Source: Burkholderiaceae bacterium
GTDB lineage: Bacteria > Pseudomonadota > Gammaproteobacteria > Burkholderiales > Burkholderiaceae_C
DNA: 43,328 nucleotides
Assembly: GCA_030654805.1 (NCBI GenBank)
Contig: JAURWR010000086.1
Location: 1-43,328 of the forward strand
Direction of reading: 5' to 3'
Below, one piece after another: positions 4,554 through 29,289 of this stretch (position 1 is the first letter of the stretch; each line of letters opens with the position of its first letter). The notes beneath the pieces were generated by a model. It saw only the letters and a program-made list of their open reading frames with translations, ran no database searches and had not been told where the DNA came from. The position numbers and the translations under genes were made by a program.

Positions 4554-4599
4554 ATCGTAGATCAGAAGCAGGGGAGGGGGAATTAGACTTTGGTCTTAT
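4554..4599 (-). promoter_or_regulatory. Regulon box + -10 for the sulfatase-porin operon
   Basis: Read on the minus strand, the dyad ATAAGAC-CAAA-GTCTAAT (4599-4582) is followed after 22 bases by TACGAT (4559-4554). Transcription would start near 4547, giving a leader of about 66 nt before the ATG at 4481. It is back to back with the box at 4641-4658. The outer arms of the two dyads make a 20-bp inverted repeat with one mismatch. Confidence 0.75.
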
Positions 4600-4640
4600 T
4601 GACCCCGCTACGCCAGAGGTCGCACCAGATCGTGCGATGA

Positions 4641-4686
4641 ATGAGACCAAAGTCTAATTGTGCCGCGCACAGCAGATAACCAAACT
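4641..4686 (+). promoter_or_regulatory. Regulon box + weak -10 for the receiver-only regulator
   Basis: The dyad ATGAGAC-CAAA-GTCTAAT occupies 4641-4658. Twenty-two bases later is CAAACT (4681-4686), the only one of the eight -10 candidates that does not fit TANNNT. The predicted transcription start is near 4693. That excludes the GTG at 4660 as a translation start and favours the GTG at 4720. Confidence 0.68.
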
Positions 4687-4719
4687 AAGGCCTTCCCTCA
4701 TACGCGCGGAGCGCCACTT

Positions 4720-5139
4720 GTGCCACCCAAAGCCCAGACACTTCATGTAAGCATCGTCGACGACGACGATTCGGTTCGCAAGGGCTTGTCACGTCTGATG
4801 CGGTCGGCCGGCATCCAGAGTCAGGCCTACGGTTGCCCGGAAGACTTTCTGGCGCAAGCGCACAACCAAGTTCATGCCTGCATCATCATTGATCTCACAA
4901 TGCCGCGCATGAACGGCCTGGAGTTGAGCGCGCAGCTCAGGGCCAAGGGCATTACCGTGCCGGTGATCGCAATATCGGCGCGTGACGATGACGTCACACG
5001 CCAACTGGCCCGCGACCTGGGCGTCAAGTTTTTTCTGCGCAAACCGGTGGACGACCAGGCCTTGCTGGATGCGATTTCCTGGGTTGTGCATGAAGATATG
5101 CCAGACCACCAGGCGACGCCCAGGCCGGCGCGGCCCTGA
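4720..5139 (+). CDS. Receiver-only response regulator (FixJ-like REC, no output domain)
   Basis: A stand-alone receiver domain of 139 residues from the GTG at 4720 (GCGGAG eight bases upstream). An earlier in-frame GTG at 4660 overlaps the promoter and is unlikely. Acidic pocket D14-D17 (SIVDDDDSV), phospho-acceptor D58 (IIIDLTMPRMNG), S86 and K108 (FLRKP) are all present. It resembles the FixJ receiver but lacks the helix-turn-helix, so it cannot bind DNA by itself. It is under a regulon box and converges, 3 bases apart, on the histidine kinase gene. Likely roles are a phosphate sink or competitor in feedback on the kinase, or a relay intermediate; both are inferences. Confidence 0.88.
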   Translation: MPPKAQTLHVSIVDDDDSVRKGLSRLMRSAGIQSQAYGCPEDFLAQAHNQVHACIIIDLTMPRMNGLELSAQLRAKGITVPVIAISARDDDVTRQLARDLGVKFFLRKPVDDQALLDAISWVVHEDMPDHQATPRPARP

Positions 5140-5142
5140 CGC

Positions 5143-6954
5143 TCAGGCGCTAGCCGTTTTGCCCTGCGCAGCGTCGCCCCCGACAAGCGGCAGGCTGAAG
5201 TGGAACGTGGCGCCACGGTCCGGGTTGGCCTCGGCCCAGATGGCACCGCGGTGGGATTCCATGATGGAGCGGCACACGTCCAGACCCACGCCAAGCCCCT
5301 GTGGCTTGGTGGTGTAGAAGCCTTCGAAGACCCGTTCCAGCATGTCTTGCGCAATGCCGATACCGCTGTCGCGAATCGACACCTGTGCCTTGCCCTCTTC
5401 GCGCACGGCGCAGATCAGCAGCCTGCGTCCCTCCTGGGGCTGATCCGCCATGGCCTCCAGCGCGTTGATCGTCAGGTTGAGGATCACTTGCTGCATCTGC
5501 GTCTTGTTGGCCCGCACGGTGAGATTTGCTTCCAGCCTGTGCTCGACGTCCACGCCGTGCAGGATCACCTCGCCATGCAGCAGTGTGAGGACCTCTTCGA
5601 GGCACTGGCCCAGGTCAAGGTCGGTAAAGGGGGTTTCCTGCTGCTGCAACATGGCGCGCAAGCCGTTGATGATGGTTCCGGCACGTTTGTCGTCGCGCAC
5701 GATATCCTGGAAAATCTCGCGTATTTCCGCAAGGTCGACCGGATCATGGTTGAGGAAGCGCAGGCCTGCCTGGGCATTGTTGAGCATGGCAGCCAGCGGC
5801 TGACAGATTTCGTGGGCGAGCGAGGCAGAGATGGCTCCTGTGCTTGCCACCCGGTCGCTGTGCCAGAGTTGTCGGCGGAACTTGTTCAGCGCTGCATCTT
5901 TCTGCCGGCTTTCGGTGATGTCGACATATACGCCGCACACGGCATACACGGTGCCATCCGGCCGCAGCAGCGGAAACTGGTGGGTCTCATGGATATGCGG
6001 CACACCGTTCCACTCCAGAACGTGCTCCCTCTCAATGCCCTTGCCGCTTTCGATCGCCTGTTTTTCATCGATGCTGAAGCGCTGCGCCAGTTCCTGGGGA
6101 AGTGTGTCGAAAGCGGTCTTGCCCAGAAGATTTTCTTGCTCGACTTGGAAAAGCGTTTCGAATCCTTGGTTGGTCAACTGGAAGCGTCCGCGCAGATCCT
6201 TCAGGCAGATGGCCACGGGCAGTTGATCCAGCAGGTCACGCATTCGCCGTTTGTCGTTGCGCGATTCCCGCATTATCTCCAGGTCCATCATCACCAGCAT
6301 GGCGAGGAATCCAAATTCGCTCAAATGGATGAATTCGATGATCCGCCAGTTGGCGGCCCAGTTGAACAAAATGAAGGTGAAAAAAATGCCCAGCGCCCAC
6401 GCCAGTACAAGCGTTCTCATCTTGAGTCCGCGCCGGTATTGGTCGAAGCCCGCATAGACGCCGAACGCCATCACGGCAACAATGGCCAGCAGGGCGATCT
6501 TGTGCGCGAGGCTGGGATGGAAGACGCGCAGATCGACGACGCGCTCGCCCCAGGGCAGGTCGAAATAGGTGAGCGTCGGCAACTCGGCAAACTGGGCACC
6601 GTAGGGAAGAGTCAGATTGGTGGCCAGAATCAGACCCCAGACAACGCTCAGCGCAATCAAAAACCGGCGCGGCCGCACGCCTGTAAACCCGGCGATAAAC
6701 CAAGGGAAAAGGATGTAAATGAGGCAGACCCCGGTAGCCTCCCACTTGCGCAGCGCCACCAGAGCCTCGACCGTGGGCGCCTGGTAGGCACCTGCCCGGA
6801 CCAGAATGTAGGCCATGACCACCCCGCACAGCGCCGCGAAGGCGCAGACGCCGCTCATGGCGTACAGACTGGGGATGAGAATGGTGCTCATTGTGTGGAT
6901 GCGGCGCGCTTCGGTCTGAAGCCCGATCAGTTTAACGAATAACCCCAGCAGCAT
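5143..6954 (-). CDS. Membrane PAS-domain sensor histidine kinase
   Basis: A 603-residue sensor kinase. The first 230 residues carry about six hydrophobic helices (near 30-50, 73-90, 97-113, 152-170, 181-200, 212-226), an integral-membrane sensor I do not recognise. A PAS domain follows at about 236-350 (ICLKDLRGRFQLTNQGFE; VCGVYVDITESR). The dimerisation/phospho-acceptor box contains H381 (SLAHEICQPLAAMLNNAQ). The HATPase domain shows an N box (NLTINALEAM), G1 (DSGIGI) and G2 (GLGVGLDVC). The H-box and catalytic domain are of the FixL/DctB/StyS sort, which pair with FixJ-type regulators, so the regulator at 606 and the receiver at 4720 are the likely partners. An internal ATG at 6891 is an alternative start; neither has a strong ribosome site. 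Confidence 0.92.
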   Translation of the reverse strand: MLLGLFVKLIGLQTEARRIHTMSTILIPSLYAMSGVCAFAALCGVVMAYILVRAGAYQAPTVEALVALRKWEATGVCLIYILFPWFIAGFTGVRPRRFLIALSVVWGLILATNLTLPYGAQFAELPTLTYFDLPWGERVVDLRVFHPSLAHKIALLAIVAVMAFGVYAGFDQYRRGLKMRTLVLAWALGIFFTFILFNWAANWRIIEFIHLSEFGFLAMLVMMDLEIMRESRNDKRRMRDLLDQLPVAICLKDLRGRFQLTNQGFETLFQVEQENLLGKTAFDTLPQELAQRFSIDEKQAIESGKGIEREHVLEWNGVPHIHETHQFPLLRPDGTVYAVCGVYVDITESRQKDAALNKFRRQLWHSDRVASTGAISASLAHEICQPLAAMLNNAQAGLRFLNHDPVDLAEIREIFQDIVRDDKRAGTIINGLRAMLQQQETPFTDLDLGQCLEEVLTLLHGEVILHGVDVEHRLEANLTVRANKTQMQQVILNLTINALEAMADQPQEGRRLLICAVREEGKAQVSIRDSGIGIAQDMLERVFEGFYTTKPQGLGVGLDVCRSIMESHRGAIWAEANPDRGATFHFSLPLVGGDAAQGKTASA

Positions 6955-6969
6955 GGCGTGTCATCGGAT

Positions 6970-7015
6970 ATGGGACCAAAGGTCAATATCGCGGCTGGCG
7001 CTGTGTGCCTATTCT
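6970..7015 (+). promoter_or_regulatory. Regulon box + -10 for the SYLF/barrel operon
   Basis: The dyad ATGGGAC-CAAA-GGTCAAT (6970-6987) has the most divergent right arm of the set, but the same overall length. Twenty-two bases later is TATTCT (7010-7015). The predicted start near 7022 leaves a leader of about 72 nt before the ATG at 7094. It sits in the divergent interval next to the kinase gene but points only toward the SYLF gene. Confidence 0.68.
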
Positions 7016-7093
7016 CAACCGGTGCAAGCGGAATTTTAGCCCGCGGCGTCCTGCCTGGGAGATACGTTTCACATTCATCAGGAGCTTCGAATC

Positions 7094-7660
7094 ATGATCA
7101 AACATACCCTCAACCCGTTTCGCGCTTTTTTCGCCGCGCTCATGCTGTCGTTCTTCCTGCTGCCCGTGGGGGTGGCACAGGCCAAGGGCACCGGAGAGAT
7201 CGACGCGAGCGTTGCTGCCGCCTTGCAGAGCTTCAAGAAAGAGGTGAAGGGCGCCAATGACTATCTGGCCGTTGCCAAGGGCGTGCTCGTCATGCCCGAC
7301 GTCACCAAAGTCGGCTTGGTCGTCGCCGCGCAATGGGGCGACGGTGCGCTGCTGGTCGGCGGCAAGACCGTTGACTACTACAAGATGGAGGTCGGATCGG
7401 CAGGCTTCCAGGCTGGTTATCAGAAAGCCAACTTCATCTTTATCTTCCTGACCCAGGAGGCACTGGACAGCTTCCGCGCCAGCAGCGGCTGGGGCGCAGG
7501 CGTGGACGCCGGCATCACCGTGGTGGATGCCTCCACCCCTACCATGTCGGTAGACACACTGAAGTCGAAATCCTCAGTCGTGGCCTTTGTCTTCGGCAAG
7601 GAAGGCCTGATGGGCGGCTGGTCAGGCAAGGGGACCAAATTCACCAAGCTGAAAAACTGA
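7094..7660 (+). CDS. Exported SYLF (YSC84-like) domain protein
   Basis: A 188-residue exported protein. A signal peptide spans about residues 1-30 (FFAALMLSFFLLPVGVAQA). The rest is a SYLF/YSC84 domain, recognised from AKGVLVMPDVTKVGLVVAAQ and QGDGALLVGG-type strands, through FIFLTQEALDSF, to the C-terminal GLMGGWSGKGTKF. Characterised SYLF domains bind phosphoinositides or other lipids; bacterial versions are periplasmic or membrane-associated and of unknown role. The ATG at 7094 has AGGAG upstream. The gene heads a two-gene unit with the barrel protein at 7692, behind the regulon box at 6970. Family call is good; function is open. Confidence 0.85.
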   Translation: MIKHTLNPFRAFFAALMLSFFLLPVGVAQAKGTGEIDASVAAALQSFKKEVKGANDYLAVAKGVLVMPDVTKVGLVVAAQWGDGALLVGGKTVDYYKMEVGSAGFQAGYQKANFIFIFLTQEALDSFRASSGWGAGVDAGITVVDASTPTMSVDTLKSKSSVVAFVFGKEGLMGGWSGKGTKFTKLKN

Positions 7661-7691: not shown

Positions 7692-8501
7692 ATGCATGGA
7701 ATACCTATGTTTGCCCTTCGCCTGGCGGCCTTGTCGGCGGGTCTTGCGGTCCTGCCGGCCACGGCAAGCGATGCCGAGCTTGCCAAGCAGGCACTGAACC
7801 CGATCGCCGCCCTCATCAGCCTGCCCATGCAGCTCAACTACGACGAGGGCATCGGCCCGGCCGAGCAGGGCAAAAAGTGGCAACTGAACATCCAGCCGGT
7901 GATCCCATTCTCGATTAGCGCGGAGTGGAACCTGATCTCGCGCACTGTCATTCCGCTGGTCAACCAGCAGGATGTTGTGCCCGGCGCCGGCACGGATTCC
8001 GGGGTTGGCGACATCACGCAAAGCCTGTTCTTCTCGCCCAAGAAGCCGACCGAAGGGGGCTGGATCTGGGGTGCCGGGCCAGTGCTGCTGTTGCCCACCG
8101 GCACCGAAGACCGCCTGAGCGCCGACCAATGGGGTATCGGCCCCACCGCCGTCGTGCTCAAGCAGGAGAACGGTTGGACCTATGGCGCGCTGGCCAACCA
8201 CATTTGGTCGGTGGGTGGTGACGACAACCGCCGCGATATCAGTGCCACCTTCCTTCAGCCCTTCGTGTCCTACATCACCAAGACGCTTACCAGTTTCACC
8301 TTGAACACGGAGTCCACCTATGACTGGAAATCGAAGGAATGGTCGGTTCCTGTCAACTTCACCGTCTCCCAGATGCTCAAGGCGGGCAATCAGCCGCTCA
8401 CCCTCCAGGGCGGCCTGCGCTACTGGGCAGACAGCCCCGCCGGTGCGGGTCCCGAAGGCTGGGGATTCAGAATGGCGGTGACTTTGTTGTTCCCGAAATA
8501 A
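7692..8501 (+). CDS. Outer-membrane beta-barrel-like protein ('neuromedin U'/phenol MetA-like family)
   Basis: A 269-residue exported protein of a family often labelled 'neuromedin U' in bacterial genomes, a misleading name. It resembles the MetA phenol-degradation type of outer-membrane barrel. A signal peptide (about 1-25, ending ATAS) precedes ELAKQALNPIAALISLPMQL. Repeated amphipathic strands follow, with the family signatures LISRTVIPLVNQQD, GVGDITQSLFFSPKKPT and WGIGPTAVVLKQENG. The chain ends in LLFPK. AGGAG precedes the ATG. It lies 31 bases after the SYLF gene and is likely cotranscribed. Probable location is the outer membrane; any transport role is inference. Confidence 0.78.
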   Translation: MHGIPMFALRLAALSAGLAVLPATASDAELAKQALNPIAALISLPMQLNYDEGIGPAEQGKKWQLNIQPVIPFSISAEWNLISRTVIPLVNQQDVVPGAGTDSGVGDITQSLFFSPKKPTEGGWIWGAGPVLLLPTGTEDRLSADQWGIGPTAVVLKQENGWTYGALANHIWSVGGDDNRRDISATFLQPFVSYITKTLTSFTLNTESTYDWKSKEWSVPVNFTVSQMLKAGNQPLTLQGGLRYWADSPAGAGPEGWGFRMAVTLLFPK

Positions 8502-8521: not shown

Positions 8522-8567
8522 GTGAGACCAAAGTCCAATCACTAGCGGACATCAGGATCACTATATT
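8522..8567 (+). promoter_or_regulatory. Regulon box + -10 for the first DUF2092 operon
   Basis: The dyad GTGAGAC-CAAA-GTCCAAT is at 8522-8539, with TATATT at 8562-8567 after 22 bases. The predicted transcription start is near 8574, leaving a leader of about 57 nt before the ATG at 8631. This is one of the cleanest examples of the architecture. Confidence 0.77.
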
Positions 8568-8630: not shown

Positions 8631-9425
8631 ATGGCACTTTTCTCAATGAAACAAGTGGTGGGCAACAGCATGAAGGGCGCAGCCGCCCTAGCGCTGGTCT
8701 TGGTGGCGGCGCAGCCCCAACCGGCGCTGTCGCAGCCCACCGGCGTCGCCCCGCAGGCGCAGCAGTTGCTGAAAGCGTCGACCGAGTTTCTCGCGCGCCA
8801 GCAGCGGTTCAGCGTGGACACCGAAAGCAGCATCGAGGTGGTGCTCGACTCTGGACAAAAGATCCAGTTTGACCACACCGCCCGCTCGTCGGTTGAACGC
8901 CCCAACAAATTGCGTGCAGAACGCACCGGTGACCTGGTCGATCAGGTCTTTTATTACGACGGCAAATCGCTCACCCTGCACAACCCCGACGGCAACTACT
9001 ACGCCACCATCGCGGCGCCCGACACCCTTGATGAAATGCTGGACTTCGCTCGCGTGCGGCTCGACGTCGTCGCGCCTGCAGGCGACCTCCTTTACAAGAA
9101 TGCCTTCGACATCCTGATGCAGGAGGTGACCTCAGGCTTCGTGGTCGGCAAGGGTGTGGTGGATGGCATGCGCTGCGATCACCTGGCTTTCCGTGCGCCC
9201 CACGTCGATTGGCAGATCTGGATCGAGGAGGGCAAGCATCCCCTGGTGCGCAAGCTGGTGATCACCACCCGGGACAAGCTCAACGCTCCTCAGTTCTCGG
9301 CCGTCATGAAGAACTGGGACCTCAAGCCCAAATTTAACGTCAAGACCTTCAGCTTCAAGCCGATTAGAGGCCTGCAGAAAGTCGAGTTTGTGCTCAAAAA
9401 CACCAGCGAGCCAAAGGCCAATTGA
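8631..9425 (+). CDS. Exported DUF2092 protein, copy 1
   Basis: A 264-residue predicted periplasmic protein of the DUF2092 family. The start is the ATG at 8631 with AGGAGG four bases upstream; an adjacent GTG at 8628 overlaps that site. A signal peptide ends near residue 35 (QPQPALS). Family features are the N-terminal helix with LKASTEFLARQQRFSVDTES, strands FDHTARSSVERPNKLRAE and FYYDGKSLTLHNPDG, and the C-terminal DHLAFRAPHVDWQIWIEEG. The antiparallel-strand pattern resembles lipoprotein-carrier folds of the LolA/LppX kind, so binding of a lipid or lipoprotein is a reasonable guess. It is paralogous to 10125-10916; both stand first behind their own regulon box. Confidence 0.82.
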   Translation: MALFSMKQVVGNSMKGAAALALVLVAAQPQPALSQPTGVAPQAQQLLKASTEFLARQQRFSVDTESSIEVVLDSGQKIQFDHTARSSVERPNKLRAERTGDLVDQVFYYDGKSLTLHNPDGNYYATIAAPDTLDEMLDFARVRLDVVAPAGDLLYKNAFDILMQEVTSGFVVGKGVVDGMRCDHLAFRAPHVDWQIWIEEGKHPLVRKLVITTRDKLNAPQFSAVMKNWDLKPKFNVKTFSFKPIRGLQKVEFVLKNTSEPKAN

Positions 9426-9459: not shown

Positions 9460-9858
9460 ATGAACATCAAACGCAACAAGTGGTCAAGCGGACTGGCGAT
9501 CGGCGTGGCAACAGCATTGCTCTCGGCGGCGGTTCACGCCGTTGACCCCGGCATCAACCAGCCCGGTGTGAGAGGTGGCACCGCCGGCGTTGGCGCGCCC
9601 GGGGTCGGCACCTGGGATCCGGGCATCAACCAGCCAGGCGCCATGGGCAACGTCGGTGTCGGTGCACCCGGGGTGGGGGTCGGCGCACCCGGTGCGGGCG
9701 TGCGGGATCCCGGCATCAACCAGCCGGGTGCGGTCGGCAACGTCGGCACACCGGGGGTCGGTGTGGGTGCACCCGGTGTCGGCGTGCGGGATCCTGGCAT
9801 CAACCAGCCTGGTGCCGTCGGCAACACCGGTCCGGCCCGTCGGACGATACGCCGCTAA
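9460..9858 (+). CDS. Small secreted Gly/Pro-rich repeat protein
   Basis: A 132-residue protein with a signal peptide (about 1-27, LLSAAVHA). The rest is almost wholly low-complexity: four copies of DPGINQPG separated by GVGAPGVG-type glycine/proline/valine runs, and a basic tail ARRTIRR. It is nearly free of aromatic residues and has no cysteine. The composition suggests an unstructured, elastin-like surface or periplasmic polypeptide. The ATG at 9460 follows AAGGAGACGACAAG. It lies 34 bases after the DUF2092 gene and is probably cotranscribed. I know no named family for it. Frame and codon pattern are consistent through all repeats, so it is likely expressed. Confidence 0.7.
   Translation: MNIKRNKWSSGLAIGVATALLSAAVHAVDPGINQPGVRGGTAGVGAPGVGTWDPGINQPGAMGNVGVGAPGVGVGAPGAGVRDPGINQPGAVGNVGTPGVGVGAPGVGVRDPGINQPGAVGNTGPARRTIRR
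9541..9831 (+). repeat. In-gene tandem repeat encoding DPGINQPG units
   Basis: Four copies of a roughly 24-base core (GGCATCAACCAGCC and flanks, at about 9550, 9622, 9713 and 9796) recur every 72-91 bases. Most differences are synonymous, and intervening Gly-Val-Gly-Ala-Pro segments vary in number. This points to slippage or recombination with the reading frame maintained. Confidence 0.75.
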
Positions 9859-9913: not shown

Positions 9914-9959
9914 ATTGGACCAAAGTCGCATACCACTCTGCCGATGATTGGGCTAAATT
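9914..9959 (+). promoter_or_regulatory. Regulon box + -10 for the second DUF2092 operon
   Basis: The dyad ATTGGAC-CAAA-GTCGCAT (9914-9931) is followed after 22 bases by TAAATT (9954-9959). The predicted start near 9966 gives an unusually long leader of about 159 nt before the ATG at 10125. No gene is evident in that leader. Confidence 0.72.
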
Positions 9960-10124: not shown

Positions 10125-10916
10125 ATGAGACAGAAATCATTATGGAAGCGTGGCATTCTGGCCGCGTCGCTCGGGGCCGTGCTCGGCTTTCCGGCCGGAT
10201 CGGCGTTTGCCGCCGGGGAGTTCAATCCGGATGCGGATCAGATTCTGCGATCCATGTCCAATTACCTCGCCGGCCTCAAGGCCTTCAGCGTGTCGGCGGA
10301 CATCCGTAACGATGTCCTGACGACCGAAGGCCAGAAACTGCAGCTCAATGCCAGCTCACAGTTGTTGATGGAGCGTCCATCTCACTTCCGTGCCGCGCGC
10401 CAGGGCAAGTTTGCCGACATGGAGATGAGCTACGACGGTGCCAAATTGACGCTGTACGGGAAATTGTTGAATGCTTACGTGCAGCAGGATTTGAAAGGCA
10501 CCACCGATGACGCGATTCGCGCGCTTGAGGCGGGTGCCGGCGTGACCCTGCCAGGTGCCGACCTGCTGCTTTCTGACCCGTATGCAGCGCTGACCTCTGG
10601 GGCCATCAGTAGCGGCTATTACGGCAGGGCTTATGTGGGTGGGGTCGAAACCTATCACCTGGCGTTCCGCACCCCCAAGGTGGATTGGCAAATCTGGATC
10701 AAGGCGGGTAATGAGCCGCTTCCCCTGCAGTATGTGATCACCACCAAGTGGATGACCGGTGCGCCGCAGTACAGCGTGCAGTTGAGCAACTGGAACACCA
10801 AGCCGACCATTGCAGCCAGCGAGTTCAAGTTTGTCGCGCCGAAGGGCGCGGAAAAGCTGCAAGCATTCCCGGTGGATGAAGCCGGCGAAGTCACCGGTAA
10901 ACAGGAGAGCAAATGA
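10125..10916 (+). CDS. Exported DUF2092 protein, copy 2
   Basis: A 263-residue DUF2092 protein. The ATG at 10125 follows CAAGGAGATCG and yields a signal peptide ending near residue 30 (GSAFAAG). It aligns with copy 1 along its length: LKAFSVSADIRNDVL, SSQLLMERPSHFRAARQG, YDGAKLTLYG, YHLAFRTPKVDWQIWIKAG, and the C-terminal SNWNTKPTIAASEFKFV. The two are clearly diverged rather than a recent duplication. The next gene overlaps its stop (ATGATG), indicating translational coupling. Periplasmic location is predicted; ligand unknown. Confidence 0.82.
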   Translation: MRQKSLWKRGILAASLGAVLGFPAGSAFAAGEFNPDADQILRSMSNYLAGLKAFSVSADIRNDVLTTEGQKLQLNASSQLLMERPSHFRAARQGKFADMEMSYDGAKLTLYGKLLNAYVQQDLKGTTDDAIRALEAGAGVTLPGADLLLSDPYAALTSGAISSGYYGRAYVGGVETYHLAFRTPKVDWQIWIKAGNEPLPLQYVITTKWMTGAPQYSVQLSNWNTKPTIAASEFKFVAPKGAEKLQAFPVDEAGEVTGKQESK

Positions 10917-11230
10917 TGAAAAAATCGATATTTGGATTAATGGCTCTCGCACTGGGATTGGGTTTCGGTGATATTGAGCCGGGCGCTGGAATCGGTGGCG
11001 TGTCGCTGGTCAAGGAAGCCCATGCCATCGTTGGCCGTCCTTTGACGCCCGTGAGCGTCGCGGGTGTGGCACGGCGTACCACGCGGCGCGTCATTGCCAC
11101 GACCACTTATGTTGCCACCCTGCCGCCTGCTTGCACGGTCGTCGTGATTGAGGGTACCACTCTGCAGAAGTGCGGGAACACTTACTACGCACCCCATGGT
11201 ACCCAGTACGTGCTCGTGAAGGTTGAATGA
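10913..11230 (+). CDS. Small exported protein of unknown function
   Basis: A 105-residue exported protein. The start codon (ATG at 10913, or 10916) overlaps the stop of the DUF2092 gene, so the two are translationally coupled. A hydrophobic N-terminus (IFGLMALALGLGFG) is followed by an arginine-rich stretch (GVARRTTRRVIATTTY). The compact C-terminal part has two cysteines (PPACTVVVIEGTTLQKCG) and ends NTYYAPHGTQYVLVKVE, reminiscent of small exported proteins with YY-x-P-x-GxxY endings. I do not recognise a named family. The cysteine pair could form a disulfide in the periplasm. Confidence 0.7.
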   Translation: MMKKSIFGLMALALGLGFGDIEPGAGIGGVSLVKEAHAIVGRPLTPVSVAGVARRTTRRVIATTTYVATLPPACTVVVIEGTTLQKCGNTYYAPHGTQYVLVKVE

Positions 11231-11335: not shown

Positions 11336-12154
11336 ATGAAAAAAATTCCCACAACGGCCTGGATGCAGGCTTGCGTCGCGTTGCTTCTGCTCGCAGGCTG
11401 GCAACACGCTGCCCAGGCCCAAGATGCGCCCCGTGCAGCCCCTCGCGTTGCCCCCGCCGCCCCGCCGGCCGCGGCCCAGTATTCACCCAGGATGAAGATC
11501 TATTTCAACCTGAGGCCTTATGGAGCCAACTACGGTGCCCGGCTCACCCAAGACCCGCTCCCCGGCTCTCCCCTGCGCCAGCCGCAGATCAATCTCAAAG
11601 CCGGCGATACGATCACCGCTCTTGACGGTCTTCCTCTGACCAGCCCGCTCCAACTCGAACAGCACCACTCGCAGACCTCAGTGACTTATCTGAACGTCCG
11701 CACAGGCCGGATTAGAACGCTCTGGGCCTATCTGCCGCCCCCGGGCGCAGGCGTGGGAGACGAAGGTGTCGGAGGCGGACCTGTTCCGGGGATGTCGCTC
11801 GGAATCATGGCGATGCCGGTGCAGGTGAACATGCCGGGCGTGGCCCCCGCGCCCCCGGGATTCCCGCCATCCGCCTGGCCAACCCGTTCGGCCCTGCGGA
11901 TCACCGCCGTCACGCCTGGATCACCGGCCGCGCGCGCCAAGCTCAGGCCGGGTGACACGCTTCTCACCGCGGGACAGTTCTCGACCCGGTCGACCGATGA
12001 CCTGCAGAATGCGCTCGCACAGTCGGGCGGCGTGCTGCCGATGACGGTCATGGACCGTTACGGCAAGGTTCGCAGTGTCACCGCCTATCTTGGCGGCGCA
12101 GGAGTAGCGCCAGCACCTGGGACGCCGGTACCTTTTAGTGCGCCCGGAAACTGA
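11336..12154 (+). CDS. Exported protein with two PDZ-like domains
   Basis: A 272-residue exported protein. A signal peptide (about 1-28, WQHAAQA) is followed by an Ala/Pro-rich linker. A first degenerate PDZ-like segment covers about 55-130 (QINLKAGDTITALDGLPLTSP), then a Gly/Pro spacer. A better PDZ domain covers about 180-260 (ITAVTPGSPAARAKLRPGDTLLTAG). No protease catalytic domain is present, so it is probably an adaptor or binding protein rather than a DegP-type protease. It lies 105 bases after the preceding gene with GAGGAG before the ATG, and probably belongs to the operon driven from 9914. Confidence 0.78.
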   Translation: MKKIPTTAWMQACVALLLLAGWQHAAQAQDAPRAAPRVAPAAPPAAAQYSPRMKIYFNLRPYGANYGARLTQDPLPGSPLRQPQINLKAGDTITALDGLPLTSPLQLEQHHSQTSVTYLNVRTGRIRTLWAYLPPPGAGVGDEGVGGGPVPGMSLGIMAMPVQVNMPGVAPAPPGFPPSAWPTRSALRITAVTPGSPAARAKLRPGDTLLTAGQFSTRSTDDLQNALAQSGGVLPMTVMDRYGKVRSVTAYLGGAGVAPAPGTPVPFSAPGN

Positions 12155-17378: not shown

Positions 17379-17415
17379 CAACCCGAAGACGACGGGCGTG
17401 AAGCGCGCCGCGCGA

Positions 17416-22351: not shown

Positions 22352-23467
22352 TCAAGTGCCCTGGGGCGGCGCCTTATCTTCAACGGGTTCGGGGTCTGGG
22401 GCGGCCGAGGCGTTGTCTGAACGATGCCGGGCAATCCAGGTCCAGATCGAGATGATGGTGCACCCGGCGACGATGGCTTCGGCCCAGAGGTAGGACAGGT
22501 AATCGCTGAAGGCACCCAGCGGCGGCACGCCAGGCTGGGTATCGCGCAGCGCGGGCAGGCCGAAGATCAGGACGGGTGCGATGCTAAGCGGGTCGATCGC
22601 GGAGCCTTTGCCCTTCATCGTTCCGAACAGCACCATGGCCAGCATGCTCAGTGCCAGCAAGACCATCATCAGCTGGATGCCCAGCGAGGCGACGATCACG
22701 TTGTTGGCGCGCCTGAGCTTCAATTGAATGCCTGTCATCTGCTCTTGACCGGTTTCAACGACTTCCCCGTCGAACTTGAAACCAGGAATGGACGCTGACA
22801 GGTCGAACAACACCGGAACCTGCGTGCGGCTTGCCAGTTCGCTTTTGCCGACCAGCTTGACCTGGCCGGCGGGGGGCTCGTCCGTTTCCCCTGTGACCGC
22901 TTTCTTGAGTCGACCAAGGATGGAGGTGGATTTCCCGGCAGCCGTTCCCGCCGAGGAAGATGGCGCGGGCGCAGGCTTTGTTTCCTGCCCAGGTTTGGTG
23001 GCCACGAAGGCGAGGAGGGCCTCGTGGGTGTCGAACGGATACAGGCTTTGCTCTCCCACAAGGGGAAAAGTCACCATCAGCGGACTCACGCGTTCACCCC
23101 GTTGCAGCTCGAAGCGCTGCTGGCCCTGAAAGGCATTGACCAGAAACTGCAGGTTCACGGCCGGGGTGAACTCGTCCTTCGCAATCTTTCCGGACAGACG
23201 GATCCGCATGCGTGCGGTGATTTCCCCTCGGGCGACATCCAGGTTCACGATCTTGAGGCTGACATGCACGGCTTCGGTCGCATCAGGGATGTCGTGCTTC
23301 AAGTTCAGGGAGCGGCGATCACTTTCGTGCAGGTTGTAATAGAGTACGGCAAGATAGAACACGATCAGCAGTGGAACGGTGAGGATGCGCATGGCCGAGG
23401 CCAGTTTTCTCATGGCTTTCCTGAAGGCACTGACAGGCTTGTTCGTGGGTGTTCTCAGCGTTTCCAT
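22352..23467 (-). CDS. DUF4436-like membrane protein
   Basis: A 371-residue membrane protein. The start ATG at 23467 overlaps the antiporter stop (TGATG), indicating translational coupling. One helix near residues 27-46 (ILTVPLLIVFYLAVLYY) leads into an exported beta-rich domain (VHVSLKIVNLDVARGEITAR; SLYPFDTHEALLAF). Three or so helices close the C-terminus (about 270-295, 300-318, 325-350). The YPFD element and layout match DUF4436 proteins as I remember them. A long Ala/Pro/Ser linker sits mid-domain. Function unknown. Confidence 0.7.
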   Translation of the reverse strand: METLRTPTNKPVSAFRKAMRKLASAMRILTVPLLIVFYLAVLYYNLHESDRRSLNLKHDIPDATEAVHVSLKIVNLDVARGEITARMRIRLSGKIAKDEFTPAVNLQFLVNAFQGQQRFELQRGERVSPLMVTFPLVGEQSLYPFDTHEALLAFVATKPGQETKPAPAPSSSAGTAAGKSTSILGRLKKAVTGETDEPPAGQVKLVGKSELASRTQVPVLFDLSASIPGFKFDGEVVETGQEQMTGIQLKLRRANNVIVASLGIQLMMVLLALSMLAMVLFGTMKGKGSAIDPLSIAPVLIFGLPALRDTQPGVPPLGAFSDYLSYLWAEAIVAGCTIISIWTWIARHRSDNASAAPDPEPVEDKAPPQGT

Positions 23468-24654
23468 CACGACCTGCTTTTGAGCGCTGCTGCCAGCGGA
23501 CCTGCGCTGAGCCCGTGGGCGACGATGCTGATCACGATGGTGCAGACCACGGTGGCGACCAGAGTGCCTCCATTGGGCAGGTGCGCGTCCAACACCATCA
23601 CGCCGAACACGATGCTGGCCAGCCCGCGCGGGCCGAACCACCCGATGAACAGCTTTTCTTGGGTGCTCAGGCCCAGGCCGGCAAGCGCCAGGAAAACCGG
23701 CAGCATGCGGATCAGCGTCAGGCTGAGTCCGGCATACAGAACGATGGGCCAGGTGATGTGGTCGACCGCACGGGCGATCACCACCGCGCCGAAGACGACC
23801 CAGGTGATCAGGGCCAACGTATCGCTGGTACCTTCGGCAGCAAGCAGGAGCGTGTGCTTGCGCGCCTTCGCCAACCAGCCAAAAAGCAGTCCACCGGTGA
23901 ACGCGGCGATGAACCCGCTGCCCCCAAGCCACTGTGCCACGGCCAGGCAGCTCACGGCGATGGCCGGAACGGACAACTGCCGCCAGCTGTCGCTGATCCA
24001 TCCCAACTGATTGAACTGTTTGAAGAGCCCGGCGGCTACCACGGTCAAGGCAAGGCCGACGACGATACCCACGCCGATCTGGCTTGCGACCAGATCGAGC
24101 GCCATCCGGGAAACGCCGTGCCCGCCCGGCTGCGCGGCCACAGCAAGGAGCAAGATCAGGACTGGCACACAGATGCCGTCGTTGAGGCCGCTTTCCTGGT
24201 TCAGCCCCTCGCGGATGCGAGGCGCGACGGATTCGTTCGTGACCACCGCTTTCCCCAGCGCGGCGTCGGTCGGCGCCAGCATGGTCGCCAGGATGGCGAG
24301 CTCCAGCAGGGTCAGCCCATCGAACACGAGCACGCCGACACCGAACCCGAGTAGCAGGGTCAGCGGCAGCCCGATCAACAGCAGCCGTCCGGGAAGGTGA
24401 ACATGTTCCCTGAGCACGCCAAGATTCGAATTGGCAGCATCGGTGAACAGGACCAGCGCCAGCGTCAGCTCGGCCAGCAGGCGTATCTGCTCGGCGCCCG
24501 CGTTCAGCTTGAGCAAGCCGAACCCGAGCGGGCCGAGCATCAGGCCAAAGGCGGTGAAGATGATCGCGCCGCTGATCGGCGACTTGGCAAGCCGCCCGCC
24601 CGCCAGGCTGTAGAAGAATATGAACAGCGCCAGAATGGCCATGTTTTCATACAT
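23467..24654 (-). CDS. Cation:proton antiporter (CPA family)
   Basis: A 395-residue, roughly 12-helix cation:proton antiporter of the CPA1/CPA2 type. Hallmarks are FGLMLGPLGFGLL in the first helices, ALVLFTDAANSNLGVLREH, MLAPTDAALGKAVV, and NQESGLNDGICVPVLILLL, which contains the paired acidic-residue region. FIGWFGPRGLASIVFGVMVL lies near the end. The start at 24654 overlaps the SulP stop by 8 bases. Exchange of Na+ or K+ for H+ is the family role; here, beside a SulP carrier, it might supply or buffer the ion gradient for anion uptake (inference). Confidence 0.9.
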   Translation of the reverse strand: MYENMAILALFIFFYSLAGGRLAKSPISGAIIFTAFGLMLGPLGFGLLKLNAGAEQIRLLAELTLALVLFTDAANSNLGVLREHVHLPGRLLLIGLPLTLLLGFGVGVLVFDGLTLLELAILATMLAPTDAALGKAVVTNESVAPRIREGLNQESGLNDGICVPVLILLLAVAAQPGGHGVSRMALDLVASQIGVGIVVGLALTVVAAGLFKQFNQLGWISDSWRQLSVPAIAVSCLAVAQWLGGSGFIAAFTGGLLFGWLAKARKHTLLLAAEGTSDTLALITWVVFGAVVIARAVDHITWPIVLYAGLSLTLIRMLPVFLALAGLGLSTQEKLFIGWFGPRGLASIVFGVMVLDAHLPNGGTLVATVVCTIVISIVAHGLSAGPLAAALKSRS

Positions 24655-26332
24655 CGCGATGTCCTTTCCGTTCGTTTGCAGATGGCGCCTGCCAGGCTCC
24701 CAGAACCTTGTGCAGGTTGAAGAACATGCGCTCGTGCCCTAGCGCCGCCCCAAGCGGCGAGCGAGCCAGGGTTTTCAGCAGGTCTGGATTGACACCGGCC
24801 AGCCACAGGCTGATGCCGCGCGCGCGCAGGCTCTGCTCGGCGTCGGTCAGCATGCTCAAGGCGGTGTATTCGATATCCGGAATCGCGCTGCATTCCAGCA
24901 CGATGACTTTGGGCGCGGTTGCTGCCACCAGAGCCTTCATCTTGTCCCCTGCGTTGGCGGCGTTGGCAAAGGTCAGGCGGCCTTCGGCGCGCAGGATCAG
25001 CAAGCCGGGAAAGGTCTCGTCGTCCGCATGCTCGCCCGCGCGGCGGAAAATCTCCTTCGCGCGGTTGTAGGCGATGGCGTACACCGGCGGATGATTCGCC
25101 TGATAGAGGAGCGTCAGGATGGATATTGCCACCGCGATCAGAATGCCTTCGAGCGTGCCGATGAAGACGACGCCGGCCAGCGTCGCCAGCGCCCAGGTGA
25201 GTTCGAGACGGCGAACCCGGGCGATGTCGCGGAAGGCTTGCGGCTTGATCATCGAGAGGGATGCGACCAGGATCAGCGCGCCCAGGGCCGCCTGCGGCAG
25301 CAAGGCGATCACGCTTGAGAGCAGCAACAAGCACAGCAGGACCACGGCCGCGTTGACCCATTGCGCTATCTGGCTGCGCGCGCCCGCGCTGTCGGCAACG
25401 GCCGTCTGCGACGCCCCGCCGCCGACGGGCAGCCCCCCCACCATGGCCGATGCCACGTTCGCCGCGCCCAGCGCGAGCAGTTCCTGGTTGGCGTTGACCG
25501 GCGGGTCGCTGCTCTGGCAGAAGGTGCGTGCCGCCGCGACCGATTCGGTGAACGACATCAGTGCGATGCCCAGCGCGGCCGGCCACAACTGCGCGGCGAG
25601 CGATACGTCGGGCAAGGCGAGCGCGGGCAAGCCGGGCGGCACGCTGCCGACCGATTTGACGCCCAGCGCATCGAGACCCAAAACTGCGGAAGCCACGATG
25701 CTCAGGGCCACCCATACCAGCGGAGCGGACAGCCGGGGAAAGACGCGCGGCAAGGCGAGCAGTACCGCAAGCCCTGCGAGCGCCACCCACATCGTTGGTC
25801 CGTGCGCTGCAGCAAGTTTTCCCGGCAGTTCCAGCAGGATGCCGATGGTCGTCGTACTCGTGAGGTGGATGCCCAGCACCGATTTCAATTGCCCGATGAT
25901 GATGACCATGCCGACACCGGCCTCGAAACCGACCAGCACCGGCAGCGAAATGAAATTTGCCAGAAATCCCAGCCGCAACACCCGCGCCAGGATCAGGAAG
26001 CCGCCCACCAGCAGGGCGAGGGTGGCGGCCACCGCAGTGGGCTCGGCGCCGGTTTGCGTGACGGTGAGCGCGATTTGCGCCGCCACCAGCATGGCGATGG
26101 CTGACGTGGTGGTGACGCTCAAGGGGCGCGAACTGCCGAGCAGCGGGTAGACCAGCATTGCGGCCAGCGCGGTGTACAGACCCACCTCGACCGAAAGACC
26201 GGCGATGACGGCATAGGCCATTGCCTTGGGGATCACCACGGCCGCAACGGTGAGGCCTGCGACGATGTCGGCGCGCAGCCATTCACGCCGGTAGGCGAAC
26301 AGCCAGCTGGCGATGGGGAGCTTTTTTTTCAT
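24647..26332 (-). CDS. SulP-family anion (sulfate) transporter with STAS domain
   Basis: A 561-residue SulP permease. The ATG at 26332 gives the typical opening (WLFAYRREWLRADIVAGLTV, then IPKAMAYAVIAGL). About 12-14 membrane segments run to residue 415, including GFEAGVGMVIIIGQ and the family stretch MSFTESVAAARTFCQ. A cytoplasmic STAS domain follows at about 440-550 (VIVLECSAIPDIEYTALSML). SulP proteins import sulfate, bicarbonate or other anions. Its neighbours (sulfatase-maturating enzyme, sulfatases) make sulfate or a sulfated compound the natural guess. An ATG at 26359 is an alternative start; neither has a good ribosome site, suggesting coupling to the preceding gene. Confidence 0.92.
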   Translation of the reverse strand: MKKKLPIASWLFAYRREWLRADIVAGLTVAAVVIPKAMAYAVIAGLSVEVGLYTALAAMLVYPLLGSSRPLSVTTTSAIAMLVAAQIALTVTQTGAEPTAVAATLALLVGGFLILARVLRLGFLANFISLPVLVGFEAGVGMVIIIGQLKSVLGIHLTSTTTIGILLELPGKLAAAHGPTMWVALAGLAVLLALPRVFPRLSAPLVWVALSIVASAVLGLDALGVKSVGSVPPGLPALALPDVSLAAQLWPAALGIALMSFTESVAAARTFCQSSDPPVNANQELLALGAANVASAMVGGLPVGGGASQTAVADSAGARSQIAQWVNAAVVLLCLLLLSSVIALLPQAALGALILVASLSMIKPQAFRDIARVRRLELTWALATLAGVVFIGTLEGILIAVAISILTLLYQANHPPVYAIAYNRAKEIFRRAGEHADDETFPGLLILRAEGRLTFANAANAGDKMKALVAATAPKVIVLECSAIPDIEYTALSMLTDAEQSLRARGISLWLAGVNPDLLKTLARSPLGAALGHERMFFNLHKVLGAWQAPSANERKGHRDV

Positions 26333-26375
26333 GCTGCTTATGCGGCGCGCGGGTGCCATGGTTGCGCCGCTGAAT

Positions 26376-26753
26376 TCATTTCTTGCTGGCAATGCGCGTG
26401 ACCAAGCCGCGCAGGATCAGATAGGGCAGGATCGCCAGCACGAATGCGGTGTAGATGGCCTCGCCCGGGTACACGAACTTCAGCACCATGACCTGGTAGA
26501 TGACATCGAGCAGCAGCGCGATGAGGAACACCTTGCCGACGCTCTTCCAGCCGTCTTTGAGCATGTCGCTGCGTTGGCTTGGTTCGGTCAAAAGGGACCA
26601 GAAATAGGGCGGTTTGCCCGTCCTGGCGTCGTTTAATCCGGAACGGATGGCGAAAAATGCGGCCATTGCCGGCTGCAGCAGCAGCCGGAACTTCATCGGC
26701 CCGGTGACTCGGTCGTTCAGGTTCTCCAAGAAACGCATCCAGATATCGTCCAT
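26376..26753 (-). CDS. Small membrane protein of unknown function
   Basis: A 125-residue protein with a strong ribosome site (AAAAAAGGAG) before the ATG at 26753. After an N-terminal segment PMKFRLLLQPAMAAFFAIRS that may be one helix, there are two clear helices near 72-92 (VGKVFLIALLLDVIYQVMV) and 98-118 (AIYTAFVLAILPYLILRGLV). A soluble loop contains GKPPYFWSLLTEPSQRSDML. I recognise it only as a conserved hypothetical membrane protein. It sits between the ZIP-like protein and the SulP carrier. Confidence 0.72.
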   Translation of the reverse strand: MDDIWMRFLENLNDRVTGPMKFRLLLQPAMAAFFAIRSGLNDARTGKPPYFWSLLTEPSQRSDMLKDGWKSVGKVFLIALLLDVIYQVMVLKFVYPGEAIYTAFVLAILPYLILRGLVTRIASKK

Positions 26754-26768: not shown

Positions 26769-27515
26769 TTATCCAAGTGGTAACAGAATCAAGCCATACA
26801 CCAGGCCGCCCGCCATGAACGACAGGAAGCGCCCATCCTTCTCGGCAGGCAGTTCCATGATGAGACTGTTCATGATGATGGCGCCAGAAATGAACGCCAA
26901 CAGCAGGGCCAGGATGTGGCCAGGCAGCGCAAACAGCACACCCATGCCCCACCCGAGCAAGGCCATGCCTGCGAGCACGTAGCGGCCGATCCGCTCGTAG
27001 GTATCGCCGTGTTCATGCCGCAGGGAATGGTCCAGCGACAGAAAATGGAAGGCGAGAGCCACCGCATAGAGTTCGATCGAGACCAGGCTGCTGCCAAAGT
27101 GGTTGACCAGCAGATACGCCGTCAGCCAGACGTAGGCTGAAAAACCGCAGATGTCGAGCTTGAAGGCCGGTCCAACGGCTGTGCCGTTTTCGTGGCCATC
27201 GCGCAGGCGATCACGTTGATGTTCCAGCCCATAGAAGAGCAGGAATCCCAGCAGCGCAATAAAGTAGATGGCCATGCCCTCATAGCGCAGGGTCATGTTG
27301 ACGGATTCCACAAACGCATGACGAGCGTCGTGCAATTCCGGCATCACGTGGACGAAGACGTAAGCGGCCGACATGCCAGCACCAAACGAGAGAATGCTGC
27401 GCCTGTCGCGAATCAGCGATCGAAAAGGATGCACCCGGCCGCCGACCAGGAAGGTGGCGGCAAAAACGAGCGCAGCGGCGCCGGTTTGGAACAGGGTGCC
27501 AGCTTCTGAAGCCAT
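26769..27515 (-). CDS. Polytopic membrane protein, distantly ZIP-like
   Basis: A 248-residue membrane protein with seven or eight helices. The ATG at 27515 follows the DUF202 stop by 2 bases. The second helix, SFGAGMSAAYVFVHVMPELH, and the last two (GAIIMNSLIMELPAEKDG; FLSFMAGGLVYGLILL) recall the HxxPE helices of ZIP metal transporters. The histidine-rich helix-4/5 motif of true ZIPs is replaced by FHFLSLDHSLRHEHG. It may be a divergent metal permease or an unrelated membrane family; I would not assign a substrate. Confidence 0.7.
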   Translation of the reverse strand: MASEAGTLFQTGAAALVFAATFLVGGRVHPFRSLIRDRRSILSFGAGMSAAYVFVHVMPELHDARHAFVESVNMTLRYEGMAIYFIALLGFLLFYGLEHQRDRLRDGHENGTAVGPAFKLDICGFSAYVWLTAYLLVNHFGSSLVSIELYAVALAFHFLSLDHSLRHEHGDTYERIGRYVLAGMALLGWGMGVLFALPGHILALLLAFISGAIIMNSLIMELPAEKDGRFLSFMAGGLVYGLILLPLG

Positions 27516-27517
27516 GT

Positions 27518-27919
27518 TCAGAGCTGCTTGAAGACGATGCTTGCAAACACGAACAGGCCTACGGCGGACATGATCATGGCCATGACGAGGCTGGCTCGCC
27601 AGGTTTTGACGGCGTGGTATTCGCGCAGCAATTTGAGCCGCTCGAAATACTCGACCGTGCCGGCCGCCATCGCGACCGTGCCCAGGCCGGTCAGGAACAG
27701 GCCGACGGCGCGGGGACTGAGGCCATGCGCCATGACATCTCCGCTTTCCTGGAGGCCTTGAATAATCTTGTAGATGGTGAATCCGAAGCTGATCATGGAG
27801 AGCGAGGTCCGGATCCATGCCATCAGGGAGCGGTCCATCGCCATCAGGGTGCGTCCTGTCGCAAGATCGGTGCGGTCTTGCGCCAGTTCGGTGGCGGTTT
27901 TCGGTTGTTGGGTCGTCAC
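27518..27919 (-). CDS. DUF202 (YidH-like) membrane protein
   Basis: A 133-residue inner-membrane protein with the DUF202 signature: an N-terminal cytoplasmic segment LAQDRTDLATGRTLMAMDRS then LMAWIRTSLSMISFGFTIYK, and three transmembrane helices (about 40-55, 70-87, 112-130). The family, which includes E. coli YidH and parts of VTC-type proteins, is widespread and of unknown role in bacteria. It is second in the nine-gene operon, 55 bases after its first gene. Confidence 0.87.
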   Translation of the reverse strand: MTTQQPKTATELAQDRTDLATGRTLMAMDRSLMAWIRTSLSMISFGFTIYKIIQGLQESGDVMAHGLSPRAVGLFLTGLGTVAMAAGTVEYFERLKLLREYHAVKTWRASLVMAMIMSAVGLFVFASIVFKQL

Positions 27920-27974
27920 GTTGATCTCCTCTTAGATGGCGTGGCTAACAAGCTTGGGCTGAACGCTGCAGCGC

Positions 27975-29141
27975 TCATAAGCCCGTCAGCCTGGTGAAAA
28001 ATTTCTCGGCCAGGTCGGCAACTGGATACCTGAACAAGAGCAGCGGCAGAAACGGCAACAGCGCGGTCAACACGTAGTCCTGCAATAGAAACAGGCTGAT
28101 CGGGACGAAGCGCATGTTCCTGACGACGCTGATGCTGTTGCCCAGATCGGCCAGGGACTGCAGGTCGGGTGTGCCCAGCAGGGGCTCCCGGCCCGGGTCG
28201 GCTGCGCCCAGCCATTTTTTATTGAAGCCGTTCACGTAATCCGAGCCCAACACCATGTAGTCGCTCAGGCCTTTCACCCGGCAGGCCCAGAGCCTGGACG
28301 TGAAAATAAACAGGGGGCCGAGGAACAATACCGCGATGACCACCAGCACCAGCGCGAACGCAGGGTAAATAGTCGCTTCGAAGCTCGCCGTGCCACCGGA
28401 GAGTTCTTCGGCCAGCATGGCGGCCTGAACCACCGAGATCGCCAGGATCAAGGGCGTGAAATGCGCATGCACCACTTCCAGGCCACCGAGACCAGCAGCG
28501 CCATCGGGATGGGTCGGCATGAGTTGAAGATCAAGCCTGGACACGCGCCAAAGAAAAAAACACCAGATTCCCAGCCGCAACAGCCAGCGAATCATCAGGA
28601 AGCGAAACAGCGTCAGGCAGATGATCAGGTACCACTGACCCGCCAGCATCAACTCGGTAGTGGCACGGCTCGGATCGTAGGCGGCCGTCGTGCCACCAAG
28701 AGACAGTTGCGAGGCAAACAACGAAAACCCCACGGCGGCCAGCAAGCTTGCTGTATCCGGCAGCCAGGAGTCGGTCCATCGATTGATGCGTGTGATCTCG
28801 GCGTCCAGAGCGGGTCGGACGTGCAGTGGCACGACTTCTGAGCGGATGATCGTGTCGATAAACACCGCGAACCTCGGGGCCAGCAGCGACTCGCCCAGGA
28901 AGAACAAGGGAATGGCCAGCAGCAGGCGCGCATGCGCGCCGATCACCGAAAGGGAAAACAGCAGATGCCCGGCGCCAACGATGAGTGCCAGCGACAGCAG
29001 GACGATCCAGGGAATCAGGCCGAGCGCCAACCCCAGCGCAACAGTGTTGGTTGCGCCGCGTACCAGGCCAAGGCGGCGACCTGTCCGGTGAAGCGGGCCG
29101 CCGAGTAGCGAGAATTCCTCAGAGATATTGACTTCTGTCAT
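27975..29141 (-). CDS. Polytopic membrane protein of unknown function, first gene of the nine-gene operon
   Basis: A 388-residue membrane protein with about seven helices (near 33-55, 60-88, 130-150, 168-190, 230-250, 270-292, 355-378). The best-conserved-looking segments are LLLAIPLFFLGESLLAPRF, LRLGIWCFFLWRVSRLDLQL, PTHPDGAAGLGGLE and LGNSISVVRNMRFVPIS. The Pro-Thr-His-Pro-Asp-Gly loop looks like a conserved motif of a membrane family I cannot name. The start at 29141 (MTEVNISEEF) has only a weak ribosome site; an upstream ATG at 29231 lies almost on the predicted transcription start and is unlikely. Confidence 0.75.
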   Translation of the reverse strand: MTEVNISEEFSLLGGPLHRTGRRLGLVRGATNTVALGLALGLIPWIVLLSLALIVGAGHLLFSLSVIGAHARLLLAIPLFFLGESLLAPRFAVFIDTIIRSEVVPLHVRPALDAEITRINRWTDSWLPDTASLLAAVGFSLFASQLSLGGTTAAYDPSRATTELMLAGQWYLIICLTLFRFLMIRWLLRLGIWCFFLWRVSRLDLQLMPTHPDGAAGLGGLEVVHAHFTPLILAISVVQAAMLAEELSGGTASFEATIYPAFALVLVVIAVLFLGPLFIFTSRLWACRVKGLSDYMVLGSDYVNGFNKKWLGAADPGREPLLGTPDLQSLADLGNSISVVRNMRFVPISLFLLQDYVLTALLPFLPLLLFRYPVADLAEKFFTRLTGL

Positions 29142-29243
29142 TGTTCTGGATGATCGTTTGCCGCAAGTGTCGTGAGCAGCGCCACGGCACAAAGGGCTAA
29201 TTTGCAATAGGCGCGTTGGTCCGGTCTTCATGCCGCCGTCATC

Positions 29244-29289
29244 ACGATACGCCGGGTTTCAAGGCGGTGATATTGGACTTTGGTCGTAC
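29244..29289 (-). promoter_or_regulatory. Regulon box + -10 for the nine-gene membrane/transport operon
   Basis: On the minus strand GTACGAC-CAAA-GTCCAAT (29289-29272) is followed after 22 bases by TATCGT (29249-29244). The left arm is the least conserved of the set. The predicted start near 29237 is about 96 nt ahead of the ATG at 29141. Genes down to 19927 follow with short gaps or overlaps, so one promoter may serve all nine. Confidence 0.73.

Follow-up and report, generated by a model that had tools for sequence, protein, structure and literature searches.

In a 43,328-nucleotide (nt) stretch of DNA from a Burkholderiaceae bacterium (GCA_030654805.1, contig JAURWR010000086.1, forward strand, positions 1–43,328; referred to as the window), eight transcription units of one gene island are headed by promoters of a single type, composed of an 18-bp box (consensus ATNRGAC-CAAA-GTCYAAT) and a −10-like hexamer at a fixed distance from it. 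The units take in two sulfatases, an anaerobic sulfatase maturase, a porin, transporters, and exported proteins of uncharacterised function. It is highly probable that a two-component system drives this island as one regulon through eight class II promoters, and the FixJ/NarL-family response regulator encoded at 606–1271 is the likely activator of all eight, as predicted from the arrangement described below. The initial annotation had proposed that one regulator switches these genes on as one programme; one promoter type over eight units stands, with the 606 regulator as its likely activator, and the single programme itself we infer.

Boxes and promoter geometry

The boxes and their hexamers are compiled below; the units were assigned from gene order and strand.

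4582–4599, minus strand: box 1, heads sulfatase 1 (2808–4481) and an OprB porin (within 1361–2848)
4554–4559, minus strand: TACGAT, −10 of box 1
4641–4658, plus strand: box 2, heads the receiver-only protein at 4720
4681–4686, plus strand: CAAACT, −10-like hexamer of box 2, the weakest of the eight (TAACTT in both orthologues)
6970–6987, plus strand: box 3, heads a Ysc84-domain protein (7094–7660) and a MetA-like protein (7692–8501)
7010–7015, plus strand: TATTCT, −10 of box 3
8522–8539, plus strand: box 4, heads DUF2092 protein a (8631–9425) and a Gly/Val/Pro-rich repeat protein (9460–9858)
8562–8567, plus strand: TATATT, −10 of box 4
9914–9931, plus strand: box 5, heads DUF2092 protein b (10125–10916), a small protein (10913–11230), a PDZ protein (11336–12154), and 12178–12615
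9954–9959, plus strand: TAAATT, −10 of box 5
16786–16803, minus strand: box 6, heads DUF3313 (16008–16661), Lnb_N (within 14909–16000), and patatin/Omp85 (within 12688–15072)
16758–16763, minus strand: TATCGT, −10 of box 6
19876–19893, minus strand: box 7, heads arylsulfatase 2 (17454–19817) and a short protein (16839–17381)
19848–19853, minus strand: TACCAT, −10 of box 7
29272–29289, minus strand: box 8, heads 27975–29141, DUF202 (27518–27919), 26769–27515, 26376–26753, and SulP (24647–26392), followed by an Na/H exchanger (23467–24654), DUF4436 (22352 to about 23467), 21236–22300, and the anaerobic sulfatase maturase (19927–21168)
29244–29249, minus strand: TATCGT, −10 of box 8

All eight boxes seen in the initial annotation are present, with 0, 0, 2, 1, 2, 0, 0, and 2 mismatches in order of position, and the common orientation claimed for them was borne out, as 8/8 point toward a gene with equal spacing to the −10-like hexamer. 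In 100 dinucleotide shuffles, the chance expectation for boxes was a mean of 0.07 and a maximum of 2. A scan of the whole host genome (G000, 3.87 Mb, 131 contigs) with up to two mismatches returned only these eight sites, compared with none for the control, in which the box pattern was read backwards; with no other match in the genome at this threshold, the regulon, if defined by its box, consists of this island alone. At up to three mismatches, ten sites were obtained (control, 4), namely the eight boxes and two others (L172 and L173), which carry no (T/C)ANNNT at 22 nt. Box 3, whose right half is shifted (GGTCAAT), comes within 15 nt of the kinase gene's start codon but faces away from it.

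Two features originally ascribed to the box had to be relaxed. Its dyad symmetry is imperfect, with 12 of 18 letters symmetric in three boxes, 10 in two, and 8 in three. The supposedly invariant centre CAAA holds within the window, but a search with free centre over 22 loci gave 38 sites, 21 of them with CAAA and 14 with CAAG.

The special feature of these promoters is their spacing. The hexamer (T/C)ANNNT is found exactly 22 nt past the box in all eight cases, TANNNT in seven of them, and TANNNT occurs at most once at every other offset between 0 and 59 nt; at the −35 spacings of 16–18 nt, the hexamers share just 0–4 of the six letters of TTGACA. A site adjoining the −35 region, a fixed distance to the −10 hexamer, and a poor −35 element are the marks of class II activation, and the box promoters are, judged by their sequence, activator-dependent sigma-70 promoters of this class. 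With the −10 hexamer in its usual place at −12 to −7, the box covers approximately −52 to −35, with its centre at ≈ −43.5; the transcription start is predicted ≈ 35 nt past the end of the box, or ≈ 43 nt from its centre, where the initial annotation had given about 40 nt downstream. The resulting predicted 5′ leaders measure 24–159 nt for seven units and ≈ 96 nt for the eighth (27975–29141). Furthermore, in the 22 loci the core GAC-C-(A/T)(A/T)-N-GTC is followed by TANNNT 36 times at 22 nt, whereas the remaining offsets between 14 and 30 gave 0–2 occurrences apiece; three of these 36 sites (L144, L185, L186) belong to loci for whose selection the 22 nt were part of the pattern, and the remaining 33 are free of that choice, but most of the loci were picked for holding boxes.

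Conservation in Thiobacillus

In a survey of regulators, which comprised the best 80 of 574 loci found via the 606 protein by a search that used the peptide LNKQIAYD, the closest relatives in the genome collection were those of two Thiobacillus metagenome-assembled genomes (MAGs), with 81 and 77% identity. Most genes of the island recur in both Thiobacillus islands, which have boxes ahead of the same eight units and extra boxes ahead of the MetA-like gene (both MAGs) and ahead of the maturase (G150). Over the eight orthologous promoters, 136 of 144 box letters are identical in each MAG (94%), and the T, A, and T of the −10 hexamer are kept in 23 of 24 instances (96%). The corresponding values amount to 104 and 107 of 176 for the spacer between box and hexamer (59–61%), 80 and 82 of 160 for the nearest 20 nt upstream (50–51%), 99 of 320 each for the positions 21–60 nt upstream (31%), and 92 and 94 of 256 for the downstream flank (36–37%). 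The box and the −10 hexamer are conserved far above their surroundings.

The two-component system

The signalling proteins of the island are the following.

606–1271, plus strand: FixJ/NarL-family response regulator (606 regulator), Pfam Response_reg and GerE, without a box of its own
4720–5139, plus strand: receiver-only response regulator, headed by its own box (box 2)
5143–6954, minus strand: membrane histidine kinase, with about 6–7 hydrophobic segments in residues 24–223, PAS, HisKA, and HATPase

With its receiver and GerE helix-turn-helix domains, the 606 regulator fits the FixJ subfamily within the NarL/FixJ response regulators; with its best NCBIfam model, FixJ, it scores 215.3 bits against a cut-off of 255, and thus falls outside FixJ proper. 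The nearest solved structure by sequence is 1yio, which we take to be StyR. There are 19 GerE matches in the genome, and the 606 gene is the sole one on this contig. The kinase has FixL as its best NCBIfam model, at 161 bits against a cut-off of 850. Regulator and PAS kinase are laid out in domains like the rhizobial FixL/FixJ pair, and both proteins of the window remain below the curated cut-offs. A box followed by a receiver gene was found in seven loci, i.e., the window, L104, L106, L016, L119, L121, and L144 (the L016 box with three mismatches), and the order kinase–regulator–box–receiver also occurs in L016, L119, L121, and L144.

The proposed mechanism would start with phosphorylation of the 606 regulator by the membrane kinase. 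A dimer of the regulator would then bind the box centred ≈ 43.5 bp upstream of the start, stand in for the missing −35 element, and recruit sigma-70 RNA polymerase to the −10 hexamer at 22 nt in class II fashion. Activation would turn on the eight units and with them two Cys-type sulfatases, an oxygen-independent maturase, the OprB porin, the SulP permease, the Na/H exchanger, and further, largely exported proteins. The receiver-only protein, itself driven by a box, would probably drain phosphate and thereby limit the response as a feedback element. Most likely, the island serves the uptake and desulfation of a sulfated compound.

Relation to known regulators and motifs

The initial annotation knew of no description of such a box, a statement that holds only in part, as the ACTU motif of CrbR/ErdR is similar in sequence and occupies the same place in the promoter. 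According to Sepulveda and Lupas 2017 (PMC5715377), ACTU, the motif of the CrbS/CrbR (MxtR/ErdR) system, is an imperfect inverted repeat of 17 bp with a GAC-N4-GTC-like core; it is located at −52 to −36, directly before the acs RpoD promoter, and a LuxR-type response regulator needs it for activation. The comparison was made with individual sites, six of the 23 in Table 4 of the paper; it revealed similar letters and an equal position relative to the −10 hexamer. The ACTU sites match the window boxes in 7–15 of 17 letters, the acs site in 9–13 and those of other tested genes in 7–12, while the PFLU5314 site, a predicted and non-significant one (q 0.239), reached 11–15, with three boxes at 15; shuffled ACTU letters matched the best box in 5.8 positions on average, with a maximum of 14 (2000 shuffles). 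Unlike the regulon described here, with its sulfatase/envelope island, CrbR acts on acetate genes that are scattered over several genomic locations.

The regulators differ as well. CrbR-like proteins form a clade (100/100) separate from the FixJ-like group of the 606 regulator with the helix EKT[VI]K[VA]HR, and the 606 regulator attains only 51.5 bits with the ErdR model (cut-off 390), which places it outside CrbR/ErdR. Given the likeness in letters, the separate clade, and this low score, the window box is best seen as a cousin of the described ACTU motif that belongs to a different regulator group. CrbR-like regulators share LNKQIAYD and E.T[VI]K.H with the 606 protein, the former partly because the search used it. 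Distant loci with regulators of ≈ 30% identity carry similar boxes before genes of 650, 514, and 1141 amino acids, presumably acetyl-CoA synthetase, an aldehyde dehydrogenase, and a CrbS-like sensor. ACTU-like boxes were also observed near CrbR-like regulators in organisms outside the ACTU table, including a Ruegeria (L068:3213, L075:7866, L086:15984, L089:15061), and those of L068, L075, and L086 have (T/C)ANNNT at 22 nt as well.

Two further FixJ-like regulators are of interest in this context. StyR activates from about −40 via its STY2 site, and resembles the 606 regulator in its FixJ-type build and in the distance of the activating site from the start, but it controls styrene genes from one main promoter and under integration host factor (IHF) control (PMC2442086). 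ThsR is likewise FixJ-like and has an element of 18 bp that contains an inverted repeat of 6 bp, but its operator is TATGTGGTTTACCACAAT and its targets are thiosulfate reductase genes (PMC5408782). Among the matches listed from open-licence papers, no description of the regulon or of its FixJ-like regulator group was found; as far as this literature search can say, the promoter type is known and the motif has a described relative, and the regulon and this group of regulators appear to be undescribed.

Box and regulator in other genomes

For the composite promoter (box with up to two mismatches, 22 nt, TANNNT), 5 of the 7 surveyed loci with the helix EKT[VI]K[VA]HR were positive versus 1 of the 73 others (Fisher p = 5e-6), and the single exception, L086, holds a CrbR-like regulator. 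This helix type had been defined after the first box loci were seen, and because of this post hoc choice the reverse test was run, from box pattern to regulator, with places found by pattern only as the independent look. The composite with up to one mismatch was searched in 299 Pseudomonadota, 198 genomes of the NaphS2 phylum, and 119 Acidobacteriota. Four of the 16 places found have a 606 relative less than 10 kb away (49–53% identity, all with the helix EKT[VI]KVHR), two without mismatch (G525, G751) and two with one (G383, G660). In G525 and G660 the box neighbour is the sole 606 relative (E up to 1e-25), and in G383 (8.8 Mb) it is the best of 12 relatives, 2.5 kb from the box.

The gene content next to such boxes recalls that of the window in part. 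In L120 (NaphS2), one box is located ahead of a DUF2092 gene with a relative of sulfatase 2 and a second heads an operon ending in DUF1254/DUF1214; L119 holds relatives of sulfatase 2 and the maturase, plus DUF2950; and in L149 (G383), the box stands directly ahead of a formylglycine-generating enzyme (FGE) and two sulfatases. Enolase and Omp85 genes follow the box in L186, and in L144 only the receiver protein was found after the box, with electron-transfer flavoprotein genes farther on, so that sulfatases are frequent in box loci but not universal. The Acidobacteriota MAG G171 (11.6 Mb) contains 14 boxes with up to two mismatches on 11 contigs (backwards control, 2), which possibly represent a genome-wide regulon (L109–L116, L192, L193) rather than one island.

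Within the family, 28 others of 150 genomes had one or two box matches each, 34 in total versus 23 for the backwards control; G103, a genome of the same genus, has no box, and the 606 relative closest to the window protein reaches 43% identity there. The search for the box alone, with up to one mismatch, gave three places in the family. The box of G034, without a −10 hexamer at 22 nt, adjoins a 606-type regulator as well as patatin and Ysc84 relatives, and this regulator is the weaker of several 606 relatives in that genome; near the box of G097, no such regulator is present.

From these data emerges a more far-reaching proposal, which we regard as tentative and give slightly less than an even chance: a portable cassette of PAS kinase, FixJ-like regulator with the EKT[VI]K[VA]HR helix, and often a receiver-only protein, with one grammar (ATTGGAC-CAA[AG]-GTCCAAT, 22 nt, TANNNT), may have spread over Pseudomonadota, Thermodesulfobacteriota, Myxococcota, and Acidobacteriota (with a worn box in Planctomycetota) as a dedicated sulfatase/envelope switch, together with the anaerobic maturase or FGE. 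The initial annotation had named co-occurrence of box and regulator as a check: the grammar does recur beside 606 relatives in other phyla, and the number of pattern-only places is about that of the control.

Several observations weigh against the link between box and regulator. The 16 pattern-only places, which were counted with G000 and both seed genomes (G169, G171) excluded, compare with 12 for the backwards pattern, so that most of them are probably due to chance; 12 of the 16 have no 606 relative above 30% identity in the stretch fetched, four of these contigs being only 5.5–7.1 kb long. Even among the four places without mismatch the regulator is nearby in two and not in G305 and G764. 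In the family, G024 has a perfect box that lacks both a −10 hexamer at 22 nt and a nearby regulator of this type, and several G171 boxes are likewise without the hexamer at that distance. L016 and L018 possess the helix, but only boxes with three mismatches were found within these loci. The helix type does not form a clade: the tree requires 7 changes, a count as low as which was reached in none of 500 shuffles. Furthermore, a similar motif is bound by CrbR-like regulators, so that the protein cannot be told from its box alone.

When 46 regulator loci were screened for other dyads at the 22-nt distance from TANNNT, nothing but scattered singles appeared apart from the known box, mostly at the shuffled level, in a test of low sensitivity that recovered 2 of 5 L013 boxes and none in L017 or L018; exceptions are L029, with two unlike dyads (0.0 expected), and the close relatives L041 and L042, which share one. 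Two Marinobacter sites with the identical sequence CTTAGACCAAAGTCTTAT (L153:9941 and L154:9633, from G164 and G167) lack a −10 hexamer at 22 nt, as well as a 606 relative in the stretch fetched, and were not counted. In L151 (9978–10010), a kinase–regulator–receiver cassette is accompanied by two boxes (ATAGGACCAAAGTCCAAT and AATGGACCAAGGTCCAAT) that overlap, the second starting 15 nt from the first.

Alternative explanations and significance

Given the closeness to ACTU, a CrbR/ErdR-like regulator encoded elsewhere in the genome might read the boxes as ACTU sites, which would make the island part of an acetate or ethanol programme. The match of 7–15 of 17 letters, the like position before the acs RpoD promoter, and the similar boxes of distant CrbR-like loci before genes that we take to encode acetyl-CoA synthetase, aldehyde dehydrogenase, and CrbS-like proteins speak for it, and the host genome does contain a weak ErdR relative at 140 bits, a score far under the ErdR cut-off of 390. 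On the other hand, no box with up to two mismatches exists outside the island (a looser ACTU profile was not run and the acs promoter was not inspected), the CrbR-like regulators constitute the separate clade mentioned above, and in other phyla the boxes accompany 606-type regulators and parts of this gene set. No acetate genes were among the scanned island products, acetate promoters elsewhere in the genome not having been examined. We consider this explanation unlikely.

It is less probable still that the box is an operator through which the regulator blocks the promoters. A protein bound at the box, which touches the −35 region, might also hinder the polymerase, but repressor operators rarely require one fixed spacing, and here the 22-nt spacing is fixed and no usable −35 element is present; moreover, the ACTU and StyR sites, which are similarly placed, serve activation. 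A mobile or structural repeat devoid of regulatory function as the source of the boxes, which their near-identity over 18–20 bp in several cases might suggest, is highly improbable in view of the conservation of box and −10 hexamer far above the flanks, the orientation of 8/8 boxes toward a gene with equal spacing, and the lack of any wider repeat unit seen around them.

Activation of the eight promoters by the 606 regulator, the reading preferred here, would provide a likely regulator, a box, and an exact promoter geometry for uncharacterised genes that accompany sulfatases (DUF2092, DUF3313, and DUF4436 in the window, DUF2950 and DUF1254 in relatives). The signal of one kinase, once found, would assign a condition to all of these genes. 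The grammar allows regulon prediction from sequence in uncultured bacteria, provided that the regulator is nearby, and if the portable-cassette proposal is true, the likeness of helix and box to those of CrbR would amount to a readable regulator–box code common to two old clades.

Further gene content of the island

The sulfatases and their maturase were assigned as follows.

2808–4481, minus strand: Cys-type sulfatase 1, CTSSR at residue 59
17454–19817, minus strand: Cys-type arylsulfatase 2, CSATR at residue 93
19927–21168, minus strand: anaerobic sulfatase maturase, radical-SAM/SPASM, TIGR03942 at 482.7 bits, passing the cut-off of 349.45

Directly adjoining the island is a set of type II secretion genes (29886–38990 of the window; GspF, E, D, L, K, and a pseudopilin-like protein), in which no box was found and whose GspF has no match in the compared Thiobacillus stretches. 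The products of 27975 and 26769 are 79 and 81% and 64 and 86% identical, respectively, to those of the two Thiobacillus clusters. The protein encoded at 9460–9858, without Pfam match, is built from imperfect tandem repeats of 84–90 nt encoding DPGINQPG units, and it shows 85–92% identity in both Thiobacillus islands.

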